From positions 3,038,001 through 3,102,000 of the forward strand of contig NZ_CP099997.1 of assembly GCF_024138145.1 (NCBI RefSeq): a stretch of DNA of 64,000 nucleotides. Direction: 5' to 3'. The notes under the pieces are model-generated. The model had not been told where the DNA came from and did not search any database. It saw only the letters and a list, made by a program, of their open reading frames with translations. Made by a program: the position numbers and the translations under genes. Of this stretch, positions 42,251 to 50,884 are shown in pieces. Every line of letters begins with the position of its first letter. Position 1 is the stretch's first letter. Origin of the DNA: Natronosalvus halobius (GTDB lineage Archaea; Halobacteriota; Halobacteria; Halobacteriales; Natrialbaceae).

Positions 42251-42466
42251 GCGCCCGATGCTGGGACGTTCGCCCTCGCGCTCGGTCTCAGTACTGAGAA
42301 GATTGTGCTCGGACGGCGTTCGATCTCGAGTGACGGCGCCTCAGTGACGCCGAGGGACGATAAACCGTGCTGTGGCCGTAACTCGAGACTGCGAAACGCC
42401 CTCAGATCTCTCGAGGAGGCTCGATAAAGCGCTCTCGAGGCGTTTCTCTCGGAAGCAAAAGGGGAT

Positions 42467-42473
42467 GCTTAAG
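42467..42473 (+). promoter_or_regulatory. TATA element of rps12
   Basis: GCTTAAG at 42467-42473 lies 25-31 bases before the rps12 ATG (42498), suggesting a separate leaderless promoter for the ribosomal protein pair within the larger operon. Confidence 0.45.
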
Positions 42474-42497
42474 TGCCTTCGTCGGATAGCCATCGGC

Positions 42498-42926
42498 ATG
42501 GCAAACGGCAAATACGCCGCGCGCAAACTCAAGAAGGACCGCCAGAACCAGCGGTGGTCCGACTCTGACTACGCGCGCCGAGCACGCGGCCTGCGCGAGA
42601 AATCGGACCCCCTCGAGGGTGCGCCCCAGGCTCGCGGTATCGTCCTCGAAAAGGTCGGCATCGAAGCAAAACAGCCCAACTCGGCCATCCGGAAGTGCGT
42701 CCGTGTCCAGCTGATCAAGAACGGCAAGCAGGTCACGGCCTTCTGTCCTGGCGACGGGGCAATCTCGTTCATCGACGAACACGACGAGGTCACCATCGCC
42801 GGTATCGGTGGCGCGAAGGGTCGTGCCATGGGTGACCTCTCCGGCGTCAACTACAAGGTCGACAAGGTCAACGGCGTCGCCATGCTCGAACTGGTTCGCG
42901 GCAACGCGGAGAAACCGGTGCGATAA
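42498..42926 (+). CDS. rps12: 30S ribosomal protein S12 (uS12)
   Basis: 142 residues, the standard archaeal length. Decoding-site segments [20 protein letters not shown] and [15 protein letters not shown] are intact. The ATG at 42498 opens with [16 protein letters not shown] as in other haloarchaea; longer in-frame extensions are rejected. It acts at the ribosomal decoding centre. The rps7 gene starts one base after its stop. Confidence 0.97.
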
Positions 42927-42927
42927 C

Positions 42928-43536
42928 ATGAGCGAGCAAGAACAACCCGAACCCGACGCCCCCGCTGGCGGCAGCGACCTCACTACCAAGCTCTTTGGCA
43001 CGTGGGACGTCTCCGAAATCCAGTACAACGACCCCTCGACCGAGCGCTACCTGTCGGTGACGCCCATCGCGCACACGGCGGGTCGCCACGCGAGCAAGCA
43101 GTTCAAGAAGTCCGAACTCTCCATCGTCGAGCGACTGGCCAACCGACTCATGCAGACCGAGGAGAACACGGGCAAGAAACAGCAGACGCTGAAGATCATT
43201 CGCGATGCGTTCGAAATCGTCAACGACCGCACCGAGGAGAACCCCGTCCAGGTCCTCGTCACCGCCGTCGAGAACGCGGCGCCACGTGAGGAGACCGTCC
43301 GCCTCAAGTACGGCGGTATCTCGGTCCCGAAGGCCGTCGACGTCGCGCCCCAGCGCCGCGTCGACCAGGCCCTGAAGTTCATCGCCGAGGGTGCTTACAG
43401 TGCCTCGTTCAAGTCGCCGACGTCGGCTTCGGAAGCGCTCGCCAGCCAGCTCATTGGGGCGTCGAACTACGACGTCCAGGCGTACGCGATCAACCAGAAA
43501 GAGGAGAAAGAACGCGTCGCGGCTGCGGCGAGATAA
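42928..43536 (+). CDS. rps7: 30S ribosomal protein S7 (uS7)
   Basis: 202 residues. Primary 16S rRNA-binding protein that organises the head of the small subunit. Typical segments: [55 protein letters not shown] and [16 protein letters not shown]. The acidic first 20 residues are a haloarchaeal extension. In most archaea elongation factor genes follow; here an accessory block separates rps7 from EF-2. Confidence 0.97.
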
Positions 43537-43539
43537 CCG

Positions 43540-43569
43540 CGTTTCGTTTACGTTTACGTTTGCGTTTTT
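43540..43569 (+). terminator. T-rich hexamer-periodic terminator after rps7
   Basis: Directly after the rps7 stop, GTTTCG, GTTTAC, GTTTAC, GTTTGC and GTTTTT follow in register with six-base periodicity. Multiple T-tracts are the usual termination signal in haloarchaea, so this probably ends the polymerase-ribosomal transcript. Confidence 0.5.
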
Positions 43570-43598
43570 CTCGGTTTCGGCCCGTTGTCAGCTGTCGA

Positions 43599-43685
43599 CT
43601 GCTGATCGCTGCCTGTCGACTACTGACTGCTGGCTGGCTGCTGTCGATCACTGACACCGACTACCAACTGTCGACCTCCAATTGA
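43599..43685. repeat. degenerate CTGTCGACT/ACTGCTG repeats
   Basis: A low-complexity block with CTGTCGACTGCTG, CTGTCGACTACTGACTGCTGG, CTGCTGTCGATCACTGACA and CTGTCGACC. It lies between rps7 and the HalX-type gene and carries no plausible coding frame. It marks the left edge of the accessory insert. Confidence 0.5.
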
Positions 43686-43862
43686 CTCTCCATCTATCGG
43701 GCACCTCCTCGAGCGCACTCGACGTTCGTTACTCGGTATCCTCGAATTCGACCTCGAGAGTGATACTGCTGGTCCGGACAGCGTACGTCGATCGAGCCCG
43801 CCTCGACAGATACCAACCTTCTCGGACCGGTTTGCTTGCACTTGCAGGCGAGGCGAGTCAGA

Positions 43863-43870
43863 TTTATAAT
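43863..43870 (+). promoter_or_regulatory. TATA element of the HalX-type gene
   Basis: TTTATAAT at 43863-43870 is a strong TATA match. It falls inside the longer possible frame that begins at 43836, so translation must begin downstream; GTG at 43899 is 29 bases after it. Confidence 0.6.
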
Positions 43871-43898
43871 CCTTGCACGTGGATTCTACGTACTAACT

Positions 43899-44468
43899 GT
43901 GTTGTCTATTACGTCACCTCGTGTTTTCGCCGTTCACCACGACGTTTCTCAGGTCGTGTCGGATACTGAGGCCCTCTCCGCGGTGTACGACGTTCGCCGT
44001 ATCGACTTCGATCGATCGATCCTGGATCAGCTCGAGGCGGGCGACGACGTCATCCTCGTCGACTGGGAACTCGAGAGTCCAGACCCCAGAGGGGTTCTCG
44101 ATGCGCTCAGCCAGAACGCGCCATCGACGCCCATTCTCGTGGTCACGAGCGACGTCCCGACGGACGACCCCATCGACCGCGGCGCTGACGAGTATCTGGT
44201 GACGCCCGTCTCGGCCGAGAAACTCCGATCGACGATCGATCGACTGGTTCTCCAGCACGCCTACCAGGAGGCGATGAGTGAGTACTTTCGACTCGCGACG
44301 GAGCGGGCGTTGCTCGAGAACGAACGCGAGGCGGGTGTCGACGTCGACGAGCGATACGAGCAGGTGGTGGCTGACCTACACGAGTGGCGAGAGCGGGCGG
44401 ATTCGATCAGAGGTGAGTTCTCGCGCGACGGGTTCGACCGGGCGCTTCGTCGGTTACTCAGCGAGTAA
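43899..44468 (+). CDS. degenerate receiver-HalX protein
   Basis: 189 residues from GTG 43899 (TTG 43902 also possible). Residues 9-115 have receiver topology: Asp55 in VILVDWELE fits the phosphorylation site and VVTSD fits the conserved Thr/Ser. However, the acidic metal pair that should follow strand 1 is replaced (VFAVHHD has His13-His14), and the conserved lysine is threonine (YLVTPVS). Residues 116-189 resemble the HalX helical domain (AYQEAMSEYFRLATERALLE, then a coiled-coil stretch). It is probably a phosphorylation-independent signalling protein. It lies beside the CHAT cassette. Confidence 0.75.
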   Translation: MLSITSPRVFAVHHDVSQVVSDTEALSAVYDVRRIDFDRSILDQLEAGDDVILVDWELESPDPRGVLDALSQNAPSTPILVVTSDVPTDDPIDRGADEYLVTPVSAEKLRSTIDRLVLQHAYQEAMSEYFRLATERALLENEREAGVDVDERYEQVVADLHEWRERADSIRGEFSRDGFDRALRRLLSE

Positions 44469-44583
44469 CGATTATTTTCCGCCGATTTTCTGGCCACCCC
44501 GACGCAGTCCCCTTTTTCTATATCAAATCGTTGTTTAACTATTTATACTATCAGATTTTCCCATGTATTCTGTGTGTGATTTC

Positions 44584-44593
44584 TTAAAATAAA
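44584..44593 (+). promoter_or_regulatory. TATA element of the 42-residue membrane peptide gene
   Basis: TTAAAATAAA at 44584-44593 lies about 36-45 bases before the ATG at 44629. The surrounding 160 bases are strongly AT-rich compared with the rest of the window. Confidence 0.45.
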
Positions 44594-44628
44594 TTCATTA
44601 CGTGTCGGTACCATGGATTGGATGTACT

Positions 44629-44757
44629 ATGACGGAACTTAGCGACTACCTGAAGAACCACCCACGAATGATCGGCGTCCTGTTCACGGCAATGCTGTTG
44701 CTGTCCCAGGCGGGAACGGTTGCGGCGGGGAACAACGGCGCTTACACTGGACCTTAA
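44629..44757 (+). CDS. 42-residue haloarchaeal membrane peptide
   Basis: A short frame encodes a basic/polar start (TELSDYLKNHPRM), one hydrophobic segment (about residues 14-27, IGVLFTAMLLLS) and a small polar tail ending in GAYTGP. The HPRMIGVLFT and SQAG motifs recur in a widespread family of tiny haloarchaeal proteins (I believe catalogued as DUF7503, from memory). The stop overlaps the stop of the CHAT gene on the other strand by four bases (44754-44757). Function unknown; a membrane-acting partner or substrate of the CHAT protease is a hypothesis. Confidence 0.8.
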   Translation: MTELSDYLKNHPRMIGVLFTAMLLLSQAGTVAAGNNGAYTGP

Positions 44758-46805
44758 TCGTCAATGGAGAACGTTTCACTCCACTGAATTTCGCCTTCGT
44801 ATAGAATTGGGATGTCTTCTAACTGAAGAAACCGGTTGAGCTCCTGCTTCGTTACTGGGAATGGTCCTGCAGTTGCTGCAGTAAGAAAATAAGAGTCGTT
44901 CGAGTCGAGATACGGAACAACTATCGTACCTTTTGGTAATTCGGTTGTCTCGTACGTATCGAGTGCAATCATTGTTTTCGAATCTTTTTGGGTAATTCTC
45001 CCAATAGTCGGGGCACCAGTCTCTGACTGCGCTATAGAGATTAATCCGTTTCCGACCATTCGATACTGTTGTCCCACAAGTGTCTTTCTTCGTGCCACGT
45101 CGAGTGCAGCATAGAGCGGGTAGCCTCGATTTAGCACTCTAGCGATCATGCTACCCATGCGAATTGCACCGCTATTGATTACGTCGCCGAGCGTGACAAT
45201 CCCTCCAGAACTTCCGGCTTCGACCAGATGAAGCCCTTGGTCGCGTGACTGACACGCATTGAGCAAGAATGCTTTTGTGCCGACTTCCTCGAGCGTCGTT
45301 CCCGATAATTTGCCGTCCGAGCACTGGAACCCCTCCCGATCGATATGGCCGATGTAATGTACAAAATCGCTCTCTTTGGCCAATAATTCTCTGAGTTCGT
45401 CCATCGTCAGAGAATAGTACTCGGCCACGTTGAACGGGAGTTCGTCGCGATTACCGTATATCCCGTTTACAGTCTCGAGTTCATCTTTCATCTCTGAGTC
45501 GTTACAGACGACTTTGATCTCGATAGGATCCTCTCGCGGCTCTCGTCCGATACTGTGAGTAAACGCGGACAGGGGTGTTGTACTTATCAAAGTCGTCGAG
45601 TCATCAGTTTCCCAATGCTGTTCAATTGTTGGTATGTCCAGTCCCTGATCGCGAATGTCGTGCTCCTCGGCACCTCGAGAGGTACTCACACCCCGTGTAA
45701 ACTCTTGGATCGCTTCACGCTGTGCGGGGGCTTCTGGCGAAGCACTATCGGTTTGCTGTATCTGAATGATTGCGAGATCGTTCGCGATAAAGGGGAGGAA
45801 CGTAATGCTCTCTGATGTCGGCTTCAAATGGGCTTCGAGACGCCACTCGGGGATGACTGGTTCGATCGTCGAAAACGGCGTCGAGAGATATTCCTCGAGT
45901 TGTTTGGAGAGGGGCTGTTCGTACACCTGTTCTAAGTCGAATGGAAGGGACGATTCGATCGCCTGCCGTTCGTGTAACGGTACGGGAGTCATCCCTTCGG
46001 TACGGACGATACAGTCGAGGAAGAAGATCTGCTTGAGTAACCGTTCAGCAGTTTCTTCGAAACCACCGTCACTGGTTAGTGAATAGGATAGCCCGGCATC
46101 GGTCGATATCCTCGATGCATCTCCGGAGGTGACCTCCGCTCCGAGATAGTATGCGAGTGGAGCTATAACATATACGTTCTCGAGACTCGGCGGAATCTCG
46201 ATTCGTATTCCGGTTTCCGGGCGGTCAAACTCGTCTGGAATCGATAACGTCTCTCCGATTTCAAGCGCTGGTGGATGTCCTCTGAGCGTTGGATAGGATC
46301 GTTCGGGAGTGGTGGTTTTTAACGCTGACCCGAAGGCCGTAACTGCTTCCATGAGGTCTGCCGGCTCTTCTGTCGTAATAATCGTCCCTGCAGGGCGCGT
46401 GTGTGAAGAACGGGCGCCGACGATCACTCGGGTTGCATCGTCAAGAGTGATGTGTGTTTGTTGACTATCTGCGTAGATATGCATCGAACTTTTAAAATGA
46501 AGGTAGATCTTGAACGGTGTCGAGAGATCGAGAGTGTACGCCCCTTCTGGAAGTATTTGCTGTTCACCCGGTCGAACCTCGTGGACCATCGCACCTGTCT
46601 CGTCCCGGACGTACACGAGGTCGTTCGTCGGTAGCGTGACGCTCTCGATTTCGATTTCGACGGCCGAATCGACCGGATACTGTAAACAATCGTCGCTGAC
46701 CGGCTCCGGCGACACCGACTCGTGGGTCGTCAACCGGTAGCGATGGCGCTCTATCCGATCGATAATCTCGAGCCCGCCATCGACTGCTTCGAATGTCGGC
46801 TTCAT
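44754..46805 (-). CDS. CHAT-domain (caspase-like) protease
   Basis: 683 residues. The C-terminal third is a CHAT peptidase domain: catalytic histidine His487 in FVHYIGHIDREGF, and catalytic cysteine Cys518 in KAFLLNACQSRDQG, followed by AGSSGGIVTLGDVINSGAI and ARVLNRGYPLYAALDVARR, a typical CHAT ending. The N-terminal 400 residues are beta-rich (VYVRDETGAMVHEVRPGEQQ) without known repeats, signal or membrane segment, so it is probably a cytoplasmic sensor region. GC is low for the window: two sampled 60-base lines count 42% and 50%, against 63% for a line in rpoA1. It is 67 bases downstream of the gene at 46873-47652 and likely cotranscribed. Confidence 0.88.
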   Translation of the reverse strand: MKPTFEAVDGGLEIIDRIERHRYRLTTHESVSPEPVSDDCLQYPVDSAVEIEIESVTLPTNDLVYVRDETGAMVHEVRPGEQQILPEGAYTLDLSTPFKIYLHFKSSMHIYADSQQTHITLDDATRVIVGARSSHTRPAGTIITTEEPADLMEAVTAFGSALKTTTPERSYPTLRGHPPALEIGETLSIPDEFDRPETGIRIEIPPSLENVYVIAPLAYYLGAEVTSGDASRISTDAGLSYSLTSDGGFEETAERLLKQIFFLDCIVRTEGMTPVPLHERQAIESSLPFDLEQVYEQPLSKQLEEYLSTPFSTIEPVIPEWRLEAHLKPTSESITFLPFIANDLAIIQIQQTDSASPEAPAQREAIQEFTRGVSTSRGAEEHDIRDQGLDIPTIEQHWETDDSTTLISTTPLSAFTHSIGREPREDPIEIKVVCNDSEMKDELETVNGIYGNRDELPFNVAEYYSLTMDELRELLAKESDFVHYIGHIDREGFQCSDGKLSGTTLEEVGTKAFLLNACQSRDQGLHLVEAGSSGGIVTLGDVINSGAIRMGSMIARVLNRGYPLYAALDVARRKTLVGQQYRMVGNGLISIAQSETGAPTIGRITQKDSKTMIALDTYETTELPKGTIVVPYLDSNDSYFLTAATAGPFPVTKQELNRFLQLEDIPILYEGEIQWSETFSIDD

Positions 46806-46872
46806 CTCAGTAATCTCTGAAGTCGGCCCCGTCCAGGATGGGACACCCGACCGGCGCCTCGACGCGTCTTGC

Positions 46873-47652
46873 TCACTGGGTTATCGGTACCCAGCCGGTG
46901 GAGAGGTCGCTCTCTGTGAGCGACCATCGCTCCTGGACGATGCCGTTTCGTTCTCGAAGTTCGACGACGACGTCGAACAGGGGGGTGAGGATCGAGACGG
47001 TACTCGAGTCGCGTTCGATCGGGAGGTGGTAGTGGGCGATGCCGCCGGCGGCTCGAGTCCGTCCGTTGAGCAAGTGCAGGTACTGGAATACGGCTTCCCT
47101 GCCGTACTCCTCAAGGAATGGCACGAGCGAGTCGATGCCGACGCGGAGTACGCCGGGTTCGAGGTCGCCGTTGCGTTCGAATCGTTCGATGGCGCTCGAG
47201 ACGGCGATGCCGACGTCGCCGAGGGTTTCGGCCGTCGTCACTGGTGCTTTGGCGCCTGGTGTCGATGGTGTCGAGGGAGTTTTGGTCCCGGCTGCCTCTG
47301 TCGTTTTTGCTGTCTCTGTTGTCCCCGCTGTCCCCGCCGTCTCCGCCGAGACGCTGCGGGCCGTTCCCTGGTAACTGACGATTTCGGCGTTCCCGGAATC
47401 TACGTCGTCGACCAGGCGGTCGATGTCGAACTCCGTGCCAGGCGTCGAAATCACGATGCGCTTCCGGATTTCCTCGGGGGCCGTTCCGAGCAATCGGCGA
47501 GCGATCACCTGTCGCTGGTCGGCCTGTACGACACCGGTCACGAGGACGCTCGCCCCTCGTCGTTTCAACCGGGACAGTTCGTCGGCGAATGCGCGCTCCG
47601 TCGTCCCATTACGACAATCCTTCCCCGAAAACATCAGTAGTATGTTCCGCAT
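46873..47652 (-). CDS. degenerate RecA/KaiC-like haloarchaeal protein
   Basis: 259 residues. The N-terminal NILLMFSGKDCRNGTTERAF occupies the place of a P-loop but lacks a proper GKT/S. A Thr/Ala/Pro-rich linker of about 45 residues (roughly 105-150) splits the protein, and the C-terminal part GVLRVGIDSLVPFLEEYGRE, YLHLLNGRTRAAGGIAHYHL and VVVELRERNG resembles KaiC-like families often found near HalX regulators (I recall DUF7504, to be checked). Probably non-catalytic and regulatory. A TATA-like CTTAATG (about 47668-47674) supports the ATG at 47652. First gene of the CHAT operon. Confidence 0.7.
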   Translation of the reverse strand: MRNILLMFSGKDCRNGTTERAFADELSRLKRRGASVLVTGVVQADQRQVIARRLLGTAPEEIRKRIVISTPGTEFDIDRLVDDVDSGNAEIVSYQGTARSVSAETAGTAGTTETAKTTEAAGTKTPSTPSTPGAKAPVTTAETLGDVGIAVSSAIERFERNGDLEPGVLRVGIDSLVPFLEEYGREAVFQYLHLLNGRTRAAGGIAHYHLPIERDSSTVSILTPLFDVVVELRERNGIVQERWSLTESDLSTGWVPITQ

Positions 47653-47739
47653 CTATGAAGTATCGAACATTAAGCGTTTGGGTCGAAGCGGCACGTCTCG
47701 AGCGGGAGGCACGGCCAATCGGCGGTGTTCGCGCGCCGT

Positions 47740-48501
47740 TCAATCTGCCGCTCGAGTCCCCTCGCCGACGTACGACCGAGTGGTTTCGACGAGCACCTGC
47801 CGGTAGGTGCTCGGGTCGGGATCCTGGCTGAGTTCTCGGAATCGCCGCCGGAACGCCTCGAAGTCGATCTGCGGGGCGTCCATCGCTGCCACGTGGGCGA
47901 GGTCGTACAGGCGGTGGTCGGCCTCGAGCAGGTCGTGTCGCTCGGCGAGTGCGAGCGCAAAGGCCGCGTTGACGGCGGTAATATCGGGATCGGCGGCGGG
48001 GGAGAGCCGTTCGACGCCCGGATTCGTCCCAGGGGGCGTCTCCGGTCGATCACGGAGGGCAGTCGCGAGCGAGGACTCCAGGAACGCCAGTAGCTTTTCC
48101 CCGGGGCCGACCGAGAGCGTGATGTCGTCGGCGTAGATGTCTTTCATGTGGTTGGCGATCTGGTAGCAGTGTGAGAGTTTGTACTGCTCGACGCGTTGCC
48201 CGGCCAGCGCGAGGTAGAGGGCCTCCTTCGTCGACTGGACGTGTGAAGGGTGATCCTGCTCGTGACGGGCCATGTGGGCGAACTCGTGGAGTGCCAGCTC
48301 GCGCGCCATCGCCGAGGATGCGGCCTGCCTCGAGATGTTGAGCACGTGCCGGTCGTCGTGATGGGCGGCCCAGGTTCGCTCGTCGGGGTCGTCACGCAGG
48401 TGGACGTAGACGGGGAGTGAGAGGTCACACTCGGTTTCGAACAGGTCCTGGGCGCTGAGAAACGGTGCGGCAGGTCCCGGTCCCTGTATGCGCAAATCCA
48501 T
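47740..48501 (-). CDS. HExxH zincin-like protein next to EF-2
   Basis: 253 residues from the ATG at 48501 ([15 protein letters not shown]). Residues 71-80, [10 protein letters not shown], contain an HExxH zinc motif (72-76). The domain continues with [15 protein letters not shown] and [13 protein letters not shown], where a helix could supply a third ligand. The C-terminal 70 residues are helical. It resembles a haloarchaeal family adjacent to the EF-2 gene (DUF5781 from memory). Protease activity is inferred from the motif only. It is divergent from EF-2 with 196 bases between the starts. Confidence 0.75.
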
Positions 48502-48663
48502 GTGTGTCCGTAACAGGGGTCGGGCGCCTATGGCTCTTACGCCGGTGTTCGTCGGCCGTCGGTCGAACCCCTGGCGTTCAATGCTTGCTATTCTCTCACG
48601 CAAATTGGCCAATTCGAGTCTCGAGGCGGTCTTGGGGCCTGTTCCCGCCGAGACGAAACAGCA

Positions 48664-48673
48664 CCCTTTTGAC
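48664..48673 (+). promoter_or_regulatory. TATA-like element of EF-2
   Basis: CCCTTTTGAC at 48664-48673 lies about 25-34 bases upstream of the ATG at 48698. Weak as a TATA but correctly placed for a leaderless start. Confidence 0.35.
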
Positions 48674-48697
48674 CCCGCTACCGGTACAGGTGGGTAT

Positions 48698-50884
48698 ATG
48701 GGCCGACGCAAAAAGATCGTCCAGGAGTGTGAACGGCTGATGGACGAACCGGAGAACATCCGGAACATCGCCATCGCCGCTCACGTCGACCACGGGAAAA
48801 CGACTCTCTCCGACAACCTCCTCGCGGGCGCCGGTATGATCTCCGATGATACTGCCGGCCAGCAGCTCGCGATGGACACGGAGGAAGACGAGCAGGAACG
48901 TGGGATCACCATCGACGCGGCGAACGTCTCGATGACTCACGAGTACGAGGACACGAACCACCTCATCAACCTCATCGACACGCCGGGCCACGTCGACTTC
49001 GGTGGCGACGTCACCCGCGCGATGCGCGCCGTCGACGGTGCGCTCGTCGTCGTCGACGCCGTCGAGGGTGCCATGCCCCAGACCGAAACGGTCCTGCGGC
49101 AGGCACTCCGCGAGGGCGTCAAGCCCGCGCTGTTCATCAACAAGGTGGACCGCCTGATCTCCGAACTACAGGAAGGCCCCCAGGAGATGCAAGAGCGTCT
49201 CCTCTCGGTCATCCAGGACGTCAACGACCTCATCCGCGGCATGACCGAGGAGATGGACGACGTCGACGACTGGTCCGTCTCCGTCGAAGAAGGCACCGTC
49301 GGCTTCGGGTCCGCCCTCTACAAGTGGGGCGTCTCGATGCCGTCGATGCAGCGCACCGGCATGGACTTCGGAGACATCATGGAACTCGAGCGCAACGACG
49401 AGCGCCAGGAACTCCACGAGCGGACACCGCTCTCGGACGTCGTGCTGGACATGGTCTGTGAGCACTTCCCGAACCCGGTCGACGCTCAACCCCGTCGTAT
49501 CCCTCGGATCTGGCGCGGCGACTCCGAGTCCGAACTCGCCGAGACGATGCGTTTCGTCGACGAATCCGGCGAGGTCGTCTTCATGGTCACCGACATCTCC
49601 ATGGACCCTCACGCCGGGGAGATTGCCTCCGGGCGCGTCTTCTCGGGCACCCTCGAAAAGGGCCAGGAGCTGTACGTATCGGGCACTGCGGGCAAGAACC
49701 GCGTCCAGTCCGTTGGCATCTACATGGGCGGCGAGCGCGAGGAAGTGGAGAACGTTCCCGCGGGGAACATCGCCGCGGTCACCGGCCTGCGCGACGCTAT
49801 CGCCGGCTCGACCGTCTCGAGCATCGATATGACGCCGTTCGAGTCCATCGAGCACATCTCCGAGCCCGTCATCACGAAGGCGGTCGAGGCGAAGACGATG
49901 GACGACCTCCCCAAGCTCATCGAAACGCTTCGCCAGGTCTCGAAGGAAGACCCCACGATTCAGATTACGATCAACGAGGACACCGGCGAGCACCTGATCT
50001 CCGGGCAGGGTGAGCTTCACCTCGAGGTCATCACCCAGCGTATCGAGGCCAACCAGGGCATCCCGGTCAACACCGGCGAACCGATCGTCGTCTACCGCGA
50101 GGCCGTCCAGCGACCGAGCGACACGGTCGAGGGCATCTCGCCCAACCGCCACAACCGCTTTTACATCTCCGCCGAGCCGCTGACCCAGGAACTGGTCGAG
50201 ACGATTCAACTCGGCGAAGCGTCGATGGACATGCCCGAACTCGAGCGCCGTGAAGCGCTCCAGGAGGCCGGCCTCGACAAGGACACCTCCCAGAACGTCG
50301 AGCACATCCACGGGACGAACATCCTCATCGACGACACGAAGGGTATCCAGCACCTGAACGAGACGATGGAGCTCGTCATCGAGGGGCTCGAGGACGCTCT
50401 CGACAACGGGCCGCTGGCCGCCGAGCCAGTCCAGGGAACCCTGATCCGACTGCACGACGCGAAGCTCCACGAGGACACCATCCACCGTGGTCCGGCACAG
50501 GTCATCCCCGCGACGCGGGAGGCCGTCCACAAGTCGCTGATCGACGCTCACATCAAGCTGCTCGAGCCGATGCAGGACGTCCGGATCGACGTGCCCAACG
50601 AGCACATGGGCGCTGCCTCCGGCGAGATCCAGGGCCGCCGTGGCCAGGTCGACGACATGTACCAGGAGGGTGACCTCATGGTCGTCGAAGGCGTCGCGCC
50701 AGTCGAGGAGATGATCGGCTTCTCGAGTGACATCCGCTCGGCCACCGAGGGTCGTGCGGCATGGAACACCGAGAACGCCGGCTTCGACGTCATGGCCGAC
50801 TCGCTCCAGCGCGAGACGATCATGGAGATTCGCGAGCGCAAGGGCATGAAGCTCGAGTTGCCGCCGGCGATCACCTACCTGTAA
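48698..50884 (+). CDS. fusA: elongation factor 2 (EF-2)
   Basis: GTPase that moves tRNA and mRNA through the ribosome. 728 residues from [18 protein letters not shown]1 loop AHVDHGKTT at residues 28-36, G3 DTPGHVDF, G4 NKVD. Near the C terminus, His596 in [15 protein letters not shown] occupies the diphthamide position. The longer in-frame extension to 48488 is rejected because the family begins at 48698. A short T5 run lies about 25 bases after the stop. Confidence 0.97.

Follow-up and report, generated by a model that had tools for sequence, protein, structure and literature searches.

Does the tiny gene that overlaps the end of a caspase-like protease gene in haloarchaea encode a dedicated partner of the protease? 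The question is raised by a locus in a 64,000-nucleotide stretch of the Natronosalvus halobius chromosome (G000:C1:3038001-3102000; hereafter, the window). The initial annotation described a cassette of four genes at positions 43899-47652, and open reading frame (ORF) calls together with Pfam searches located all of them where it had placed them: a receiver-HalX protein, a 42-residue peptide, a CHAT-like protease, and a P-loop-like protein. The gene of the peptide (44629..44757, plus strand) and that of the 683-residue CHAT-like (clan CD) cysteine protease (44754..46805, minus strand) indeed overlap tail to tail, by 4 nucleotides. The peptide proved to be a genuine member of the Pfam family DUF7503 (PF24335; E=7e-24, 83.7 bits with the cut-off at 27). 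To our knowledge, DUF7503 and DUF7504, the family of the P-loop-like protein, are Pfam families of unknown function, and a literature search yielded no paper on either. The core of the locus is a two-gene unit, comprised of a divergent CHAT/clan-CD cysteine protease and the convergent micropeptide DUF7503.

The two genes accompany each other throughout the haloarchaea. All 125 genomes of the home family contain CHAT relatives, and 121 contain DUF7503. Among the best 150 DUF7503 matches in this family, 106 are convergent with a listed CHAT match at a median gap of 47 bp, and inspection of the 43 remaining loci added 40 convergent pairs. Outside the home family, the same arrangement is seen for 102 of the 103 listed DUF7503 copies. 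Overall, 248 of the 253 copies examined across haloarchaea run tail to tail with a CHAT gene no more than 2 kb away, and the gap between the two gene ends ranges from an overlap to hundreds of bases. The exceptions are a copy with no CHAT gene within 9 kb (G041), one with the nearest CHAT gene 4.5 kb off (G118), one at a contig end (G123), one with the CHAT gene on the same strand (G161), and one facing a CHAT1 gene broken by stop codons (G094). At two loci (L139:4010-4257 and L341:2670-2979), two tandem DUF7503 genes lie opposite one CHAT gene.

Among 145 genomes sampled across the class, 120 contain DUF7503, 131 contain CHAT, and 14 contain neither, while none of the 145 carries DUF7503 without CHAT. 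The count of neighbour co-occurrence suggested with the initial annotation was thus carried out and gave an association far above chance (Fisher p=4e-13 at the genome level, with kinship ignored and the counts uncorrected for phylogeny). The dependence is one-way, as the peptide is almost never found alone and some intact proteases have no visible peptide. Hence the proposed cassette stands as far as the near-obligate linkage of DUF7503 and CHAT is concerned, whereas DUF7504 and the receiver-HalX gene join it only in part of the lineages.

The peptide appears to be defined by its C-terminal tail and not by its membrane segment. In an alignment of 135 distinct DUF7503 peptides, the body is conserved (Y-L-x-x-H-P-[RK]-M-I-G-x-L-F-T ... 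S-Q-A-G-T-V-A-A) and is followed by a variable linker, and 84% of the peptides end in Gly-Pro. In the window, the body (44629..44727, plus strand; MTELSDYLKNHPRMIGVLFTAMLLLSQAGTVAA) consists of the N-terminus and a hydrophobic segment with a signal-peptide-like AxA end, and the tail GNNGAYTGP with the stop codon (44728..44757, plus strand) corresponds to the part kept where the body is lost. In family f3, 64 of 67 proteases have a convergent peptide, 61 of these ending in Gly-Pro. The terminal positions use every Gly codon and every Pro codon, and therefore selection on the Gly-Pro end acts at the protein level; a DNA-level cause was rejected given this codon diversity and the variable gaps between the genes. 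One DUF7503 subgroup ends in NGGTIS, NGGTVA or SGATTY (L082, L083, L085, L092, L093, L094, L104).

Proteases lacking DUF7503 often face a protein with the same end. Among 38 intact DUF7503-less CHAT clusters, 26 face an ORF ending in Gly-Pro, compared to 11 of 506 non-CHAT controls (p=1e-26), the base rate of this ending being 0.38% of ORFs. An opposing ORF was counted if its stop codon lay at most 60 bp inside the protease gene or at most 450 bp past its stop, with the CHAT2 paralogues (see below) set aside; small ORFs were picked by position and tail, and a few chance ORFs may be among them. In particular, the home genome has a second protease lineage (L100-type), and the partners facing this type have unrelated bodies that end, for example, in RISTYGGP, RVSTYGGP, SSPYTGP or GSAYTGP. 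At L095 and L096, a different hydrophobic body ends in TTPGP or VTSGP, and at L088 to L090 the bodies are eroded with the tail NGGLFTGP intact. In family f4, DUF7503 is replaced by proteins made of 7 (L133:5034-5369, minus strand) or 14 (L134:5037-5681, minus strand) tandem tails, with a repeat unit of 13 residues ending in GNGSGISGP or GNSGGISGP and no hydrophobic segment. The proteases at these two loci are sisters of those at L150 and L159, which pair with DUF7503 peptides bearing the similar tails GNNVGISGP and GNHVGISGP; this suggests strongly that in the f4 lineage the body was lost and the tail multiplied. The tail-only and tandem-tail partners fall outside Pfam DUF7503. Since the body is swapped or lost while the tail persists or is amplified, it seems dispensable, and the membrane effector that the initial annotation saw in the peptide is not supported. 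In genome G217, where 14 CHAT match pieces were counted, several of them face long-bodied partners of different kinds that end in Gly-Pro (L211, L219, L224 to L232).

Outside the class, another family of the phylum (f22) also has distant CHAT relatives, which were seen in four genomes (L327 to L330). No convergent micropeptide of the DUF7503/Gly-Pro type was found in these four genomes, and for this reason linkage to the peptide would seem to be a trait of haloarchaea. One ORF opposite a CHAT relative there does end in Gly-Pro, but it was rejected as a micropeptide, being a different, larger protein.

The protease comprises an all-beta N-terminal region, a conserved middle region, and a C-terminal protease domain. 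Its match to Pfam CHAT (PF12770) is weak and below the cut-off (E=0.039); among 44 homologues, five match this domain at E<=0.01 (the best at 4e-5), and one matches peptidase C25. The catalytic residues pointed out in the initial annotation, His487 (codon at 45345..45347, minus strand, motif HYIGH) and Cys518 (45252..45254, minus strand, motif LLNACQS), are both present in the window protease. They are intact in all 99 aligned homologues facing DUF7503 (100%; motifs H-x-x-G-H and N-[AG]-C), and in family f3, an independent set, the dyad is intact in 67 of 67 further proteases. As five of the 44 homologues match CHAT and the dyad motifs are invariant in the aligned paired homologues, we treated the protease as a very divergent member of a clan-CD-type family. 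Searches of PDB sequences gave nothing significant. The family is present in about 90% of the sampled haloarchaeal genomes, often in several copies each; the cassette genes are near-universal and mostly chromosomal, with copies also on plasmids of 0.1 to 1.2 Mb.

Only two paralogue lineages were found with a truly broken dyad, both in the home genome (L101/L003 and L102/L004). Both L101 (G000:C1:3003893-3005476) and L102 (G000:C1:1217419-1218936) have lost the catalytic His and Cys and carry Asp with Tyr or Pro at these positions, and no micropeptide ORF of the Gly-Pro type was found opposite either of them. Flags of dead proteases raised by a regular-expression search were dismissed for the paired proteases L142, L151, L155 and L168, where the alignment shows an intact dyad, and for L225, where the motif reads LLHFVGH. 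In seven genomes of genus g14 (L056, L059, L061, L067, L079, L080, L081), CHAT is broken into two reading frames at about the same point, and the DUF7503 gene opposite it is preserved.

In order to find where the tail might be recognised, we asked which protease positions track changes in the last residue of the peptide. Residue 164 is Ser in all seven proteases whose peptide ends in Gly-Ile, Gly-Leu or Gly-Thr and Thr in 88 of 91 whose peptide ends in Gly-Pro, and a permutation mimicking the clade structure reached this covariation in none of 5000 trials. In later data from family f3, two proteases paired with Gly-Ile peptides carry Ser164, one of them a re-sample of L136. The residue lies in a near-invariant block (residues 160-179, SALKTTTPERSYPTLRGHPP; 46269..46328, minus strand), which we propose as the docking site of the tail. 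The covariation is suggestive of such a site outside the catalytic core, and, if it is right, the tail would contact the protease away from the catalytic motifs. Ser164 may be permissive for an altered tail.

Taken together, these data lead us to propose that a dedicated, convergently encoded micropeptide is recognised by a caspase-like protease through its C-terminal tail, as a substrate or an activating ligand; we see the chances of this as about even. The recognition element would be the end of the peptide, typically x-[YFIVT]-x-Gly-Pro-COOH, and it would dock on the protease, probably where residues 160-179 form the near-invariant block and not in the catalytic cleft. The peptide would then serve as the dedicated substrate of the protease or as its activating ligand, the former being more likely. 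The hydrophobic body probably holds the common form at the membrane, and the receiver-HalX and DUF7504 proteins perhaps control expression or activity. More tentatively, the pair could represent a new kind of protease module, in which an exosite reads the tail and carriers that are membrane-bound, soluble, or bear up to 14 tails are interchangeable, so that the tail would be a tag linking cell locations or signals to the protease.

Several observations weigh against recognition of the tail by the protease. No visible Gly-Pro peptide was found for 12 of the 38 intact DUF7503-less clusters, none of the 20 CHAT2 paralogues seen has a peptide of its own, and in ∼10-16% of DUF7503 tails the end is not Gly-Pro but another sequence, in some cases NGGTIS or SGATTY. 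The inner copies of the tandem tails have no free C-terminus, and a carboxylate pocket would suit only the last copy unless the protein is cut. No common cleavage site is visible across the unlike peptide bodies. The covariation at residue 164 rests on two to three independent changes, and it is weakened by the later f3 data, where four proteases facing Gly-Pro peptides carry Ser164. Finally, the AlphaFold models are poor, with the mean predicted local distance difference test (pLDDT) of 43 for the whole protein and 39 for the protease domain alone, the alignment containing only 3 sequences.

The same features allow other explanations. The peptide could be an inhibitor or an antitoxin, its tail acting as a pseudosubstrate that holds the protease off, with tandem tails as extra inhibitory units (cf. 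calpastatin), and loss of the labile peptide would free a toxic protease. The tight genetic tie, the conserved tail, the tandem repeats, and the missing peptide beside the two broken-dyad lineages are all in line with this. However, the genes are convergent and do not form one operon, and the site proposed for the contact is not part of the catalytic core. Moreover, a toxin should not be kept without its antitoxin, yet intact proteases including CHAT2 occur without a visible peptide, and the would-be antitoxin is almost never alone. This asymmetry is what one would expect of a substrate or activating ligand and not of an antitoxin, and we consider inhibition unlikely. Less probable again is a peptide signal in the style of Rap-Phr or AimR-AimP, where a Sec-type prepropeptide would free its tail outside the cell and CHAT or a neighbour would be the receptor or the maturation protease. 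The length of ∼42 residues, the signal-like body with its AxA end and the short variable tail would fit such a signal, as would the many paralogues per genome, the plasmid copies, and the adjoining regulator gene. Still, the DUF7503 body resembles an export signal by inspection, but no such signal is obvious in the tandem-tail proteins and the peptides ending in STYGGP; the part conserved across carriers is also short, and in signalling pairs it is usually the tail that diversifies.

Two further possibilities concern the body and the gene ends. If the protease cut released a hydrophobic peptide that permeabilises the membrane, similarly to gasdermins, the hydrophobic and conserved nature of the commonest body, in which Arg or Lys comes after an invariant Pro beside the hydrophobic stretch, would be explained. 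The pairing with the protease nevertheless persists in several lineages where this body is lost, eroded or replaced, and so we regard a membrane effector as quite improbable. Gly-Pro before a stop codon is a context of slow termination, and it could be that the unit acts at the level of translation, through a stall at Gly-Pro-stop, or at the level of RNA, through 3' ends that overlap or lie close, the link with the protease being regulatory. But the inner Gly-Pro copies of the tandem repeats make no sense for a stall coupled to the stop codon, the residues preceding Gly-Pro are conserved in type, and the gaps between the genes extend from overlap to hundreds of bases; this explanation is the least credible of all. 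Recognition of the tail as a substrate or activating ligand thus is the reading we prefer.

Systems resembling the proposed one are known. In bacterial gasdermin-CHAT pairs, a caspase-like protease is encoded beside its partner, often a membrane-active one. The protease here is likewise encoded beside a partner, but this partner is a DUF7503 peptide and no gasdermin, and several lineages do without its hydrophobic part. In Rap-Phr and AimR-AimP, a tiny prepropeptide gene lies beside the receptor gene, and the C-terminus is the business end of the peptide. The haloarchaeal unit shares the tiny gene beside its partner and the importance of the C-terminus, but it pairs the peptide with a protease, has its genes in convergent orientation, and includes carriers in which no export signal is recognisable. 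In type III-E CRISPR, Csx30 is the partner of Csx29 (TPR-CHAT) and is recognised at a distance from the cut site, through its C-terminal part (PMC10028731, PMC9729208). There, as here, a CHAT-family protease is genetically tied to a dedicated partner, and C-terminal recognition is what we propose; however, Csx30 is large and sigma-factor-bound, with target RNA as the trigger, whereas the haloarchaeal partner is a peptide of ∼40 residues defined by its last ones. Plant metacaspase 4, a clan-CD protease, acts on the small precursor PROPEP1 to release a peptide signal (PMC7206013). This pair of a clan-CD protease and a small precursor is similar by analogy only, and the DUF7503 peptides show no conserved Arg ahead of the tail that could mark a cut site.

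The other genes of the cassette appear to be lineage-specific accessory parts. The receiver-HalX gene (43899..44468, plus strand, GTG start) precedes DUF7503 in the same orientation; its product matches HalX (PF08663) above the cut-off and the receiver domain (PF00072) below it. The receiver domain is degenerate, the usual acidic pair and lysine being gone, while the orthologue at L133, in another family, retains them. In the home family, 24 of 25 orthologues share the strand of DUF7503 and precede it by 150-420 bp, the sole exception coming from a fragmented genome. The P-loop-like protein (46873..47652, minus strand), encoded upstream of CHAT on the same strand, belongs to DUF7504 (PF24336, E=3e-49), and the Walker A motif is not conserved in 81 DUF7504 homologues. 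Of the 102 loci with DUF7503 that were scored, 47 have DUF7504 directly upstream of CHAT; DUF7504 reaches 13 copies per genome and is not CHAT-specific. Many home-family cassettes also contain CHAT2, a further protease whose gene points away from that of the receiver protein, and the CHAT2 paralogues form one clade. In other genera of the home family, the CHAT2 gene appears to adjoin rps7.

The cassette lies between rps7 and DUF5781/EF-2, with rpoA2, nusA and rps12 upstream, that is, within the rps12-rps7/EF-2 translation gene region (42372-48774 of the window). No CRISPR gene is found among its neighbours in the window, and these do not include gRAMP/Cas7-11, Csx30 or Csx31, as they would in type III-E systems; likewise, the place of a gasdermin-fold partner is taken by the 42-residue DUF7503. 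PADLOC returned no match for the four cassette proteins, and no relatives were found in the phages and viral contigs searched. Together with the near-universal and largely chromosomal occurrence of the genes, these results lend no support to the defence role considered in the initial annotation.

A literature search for haloarchaeal CHAT proteases found none, which points to the partnership of protease and peptide being undescribed in the literature searched; a caspase-like family with a peptide partner, widespread in haloarchaea, would thus have escaped description. The tail motif, formed by the last two to eight residues, provides a simple handle for micropeptides missed by annotation. High caspase-like activity has been reported for Haloferax volcanii, while archaeal genomes are said to have no clear homologues and the gene is not known (PMC3615174). 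Haloferax volcanii carries DUF7503 and DUF7504. Given DUF7503 there and the pairing rule, it should carry a CHAT-like protease as well. If this is true, the protease family could supply the gene behind the caspase-like activity of Haloferax volcanii.

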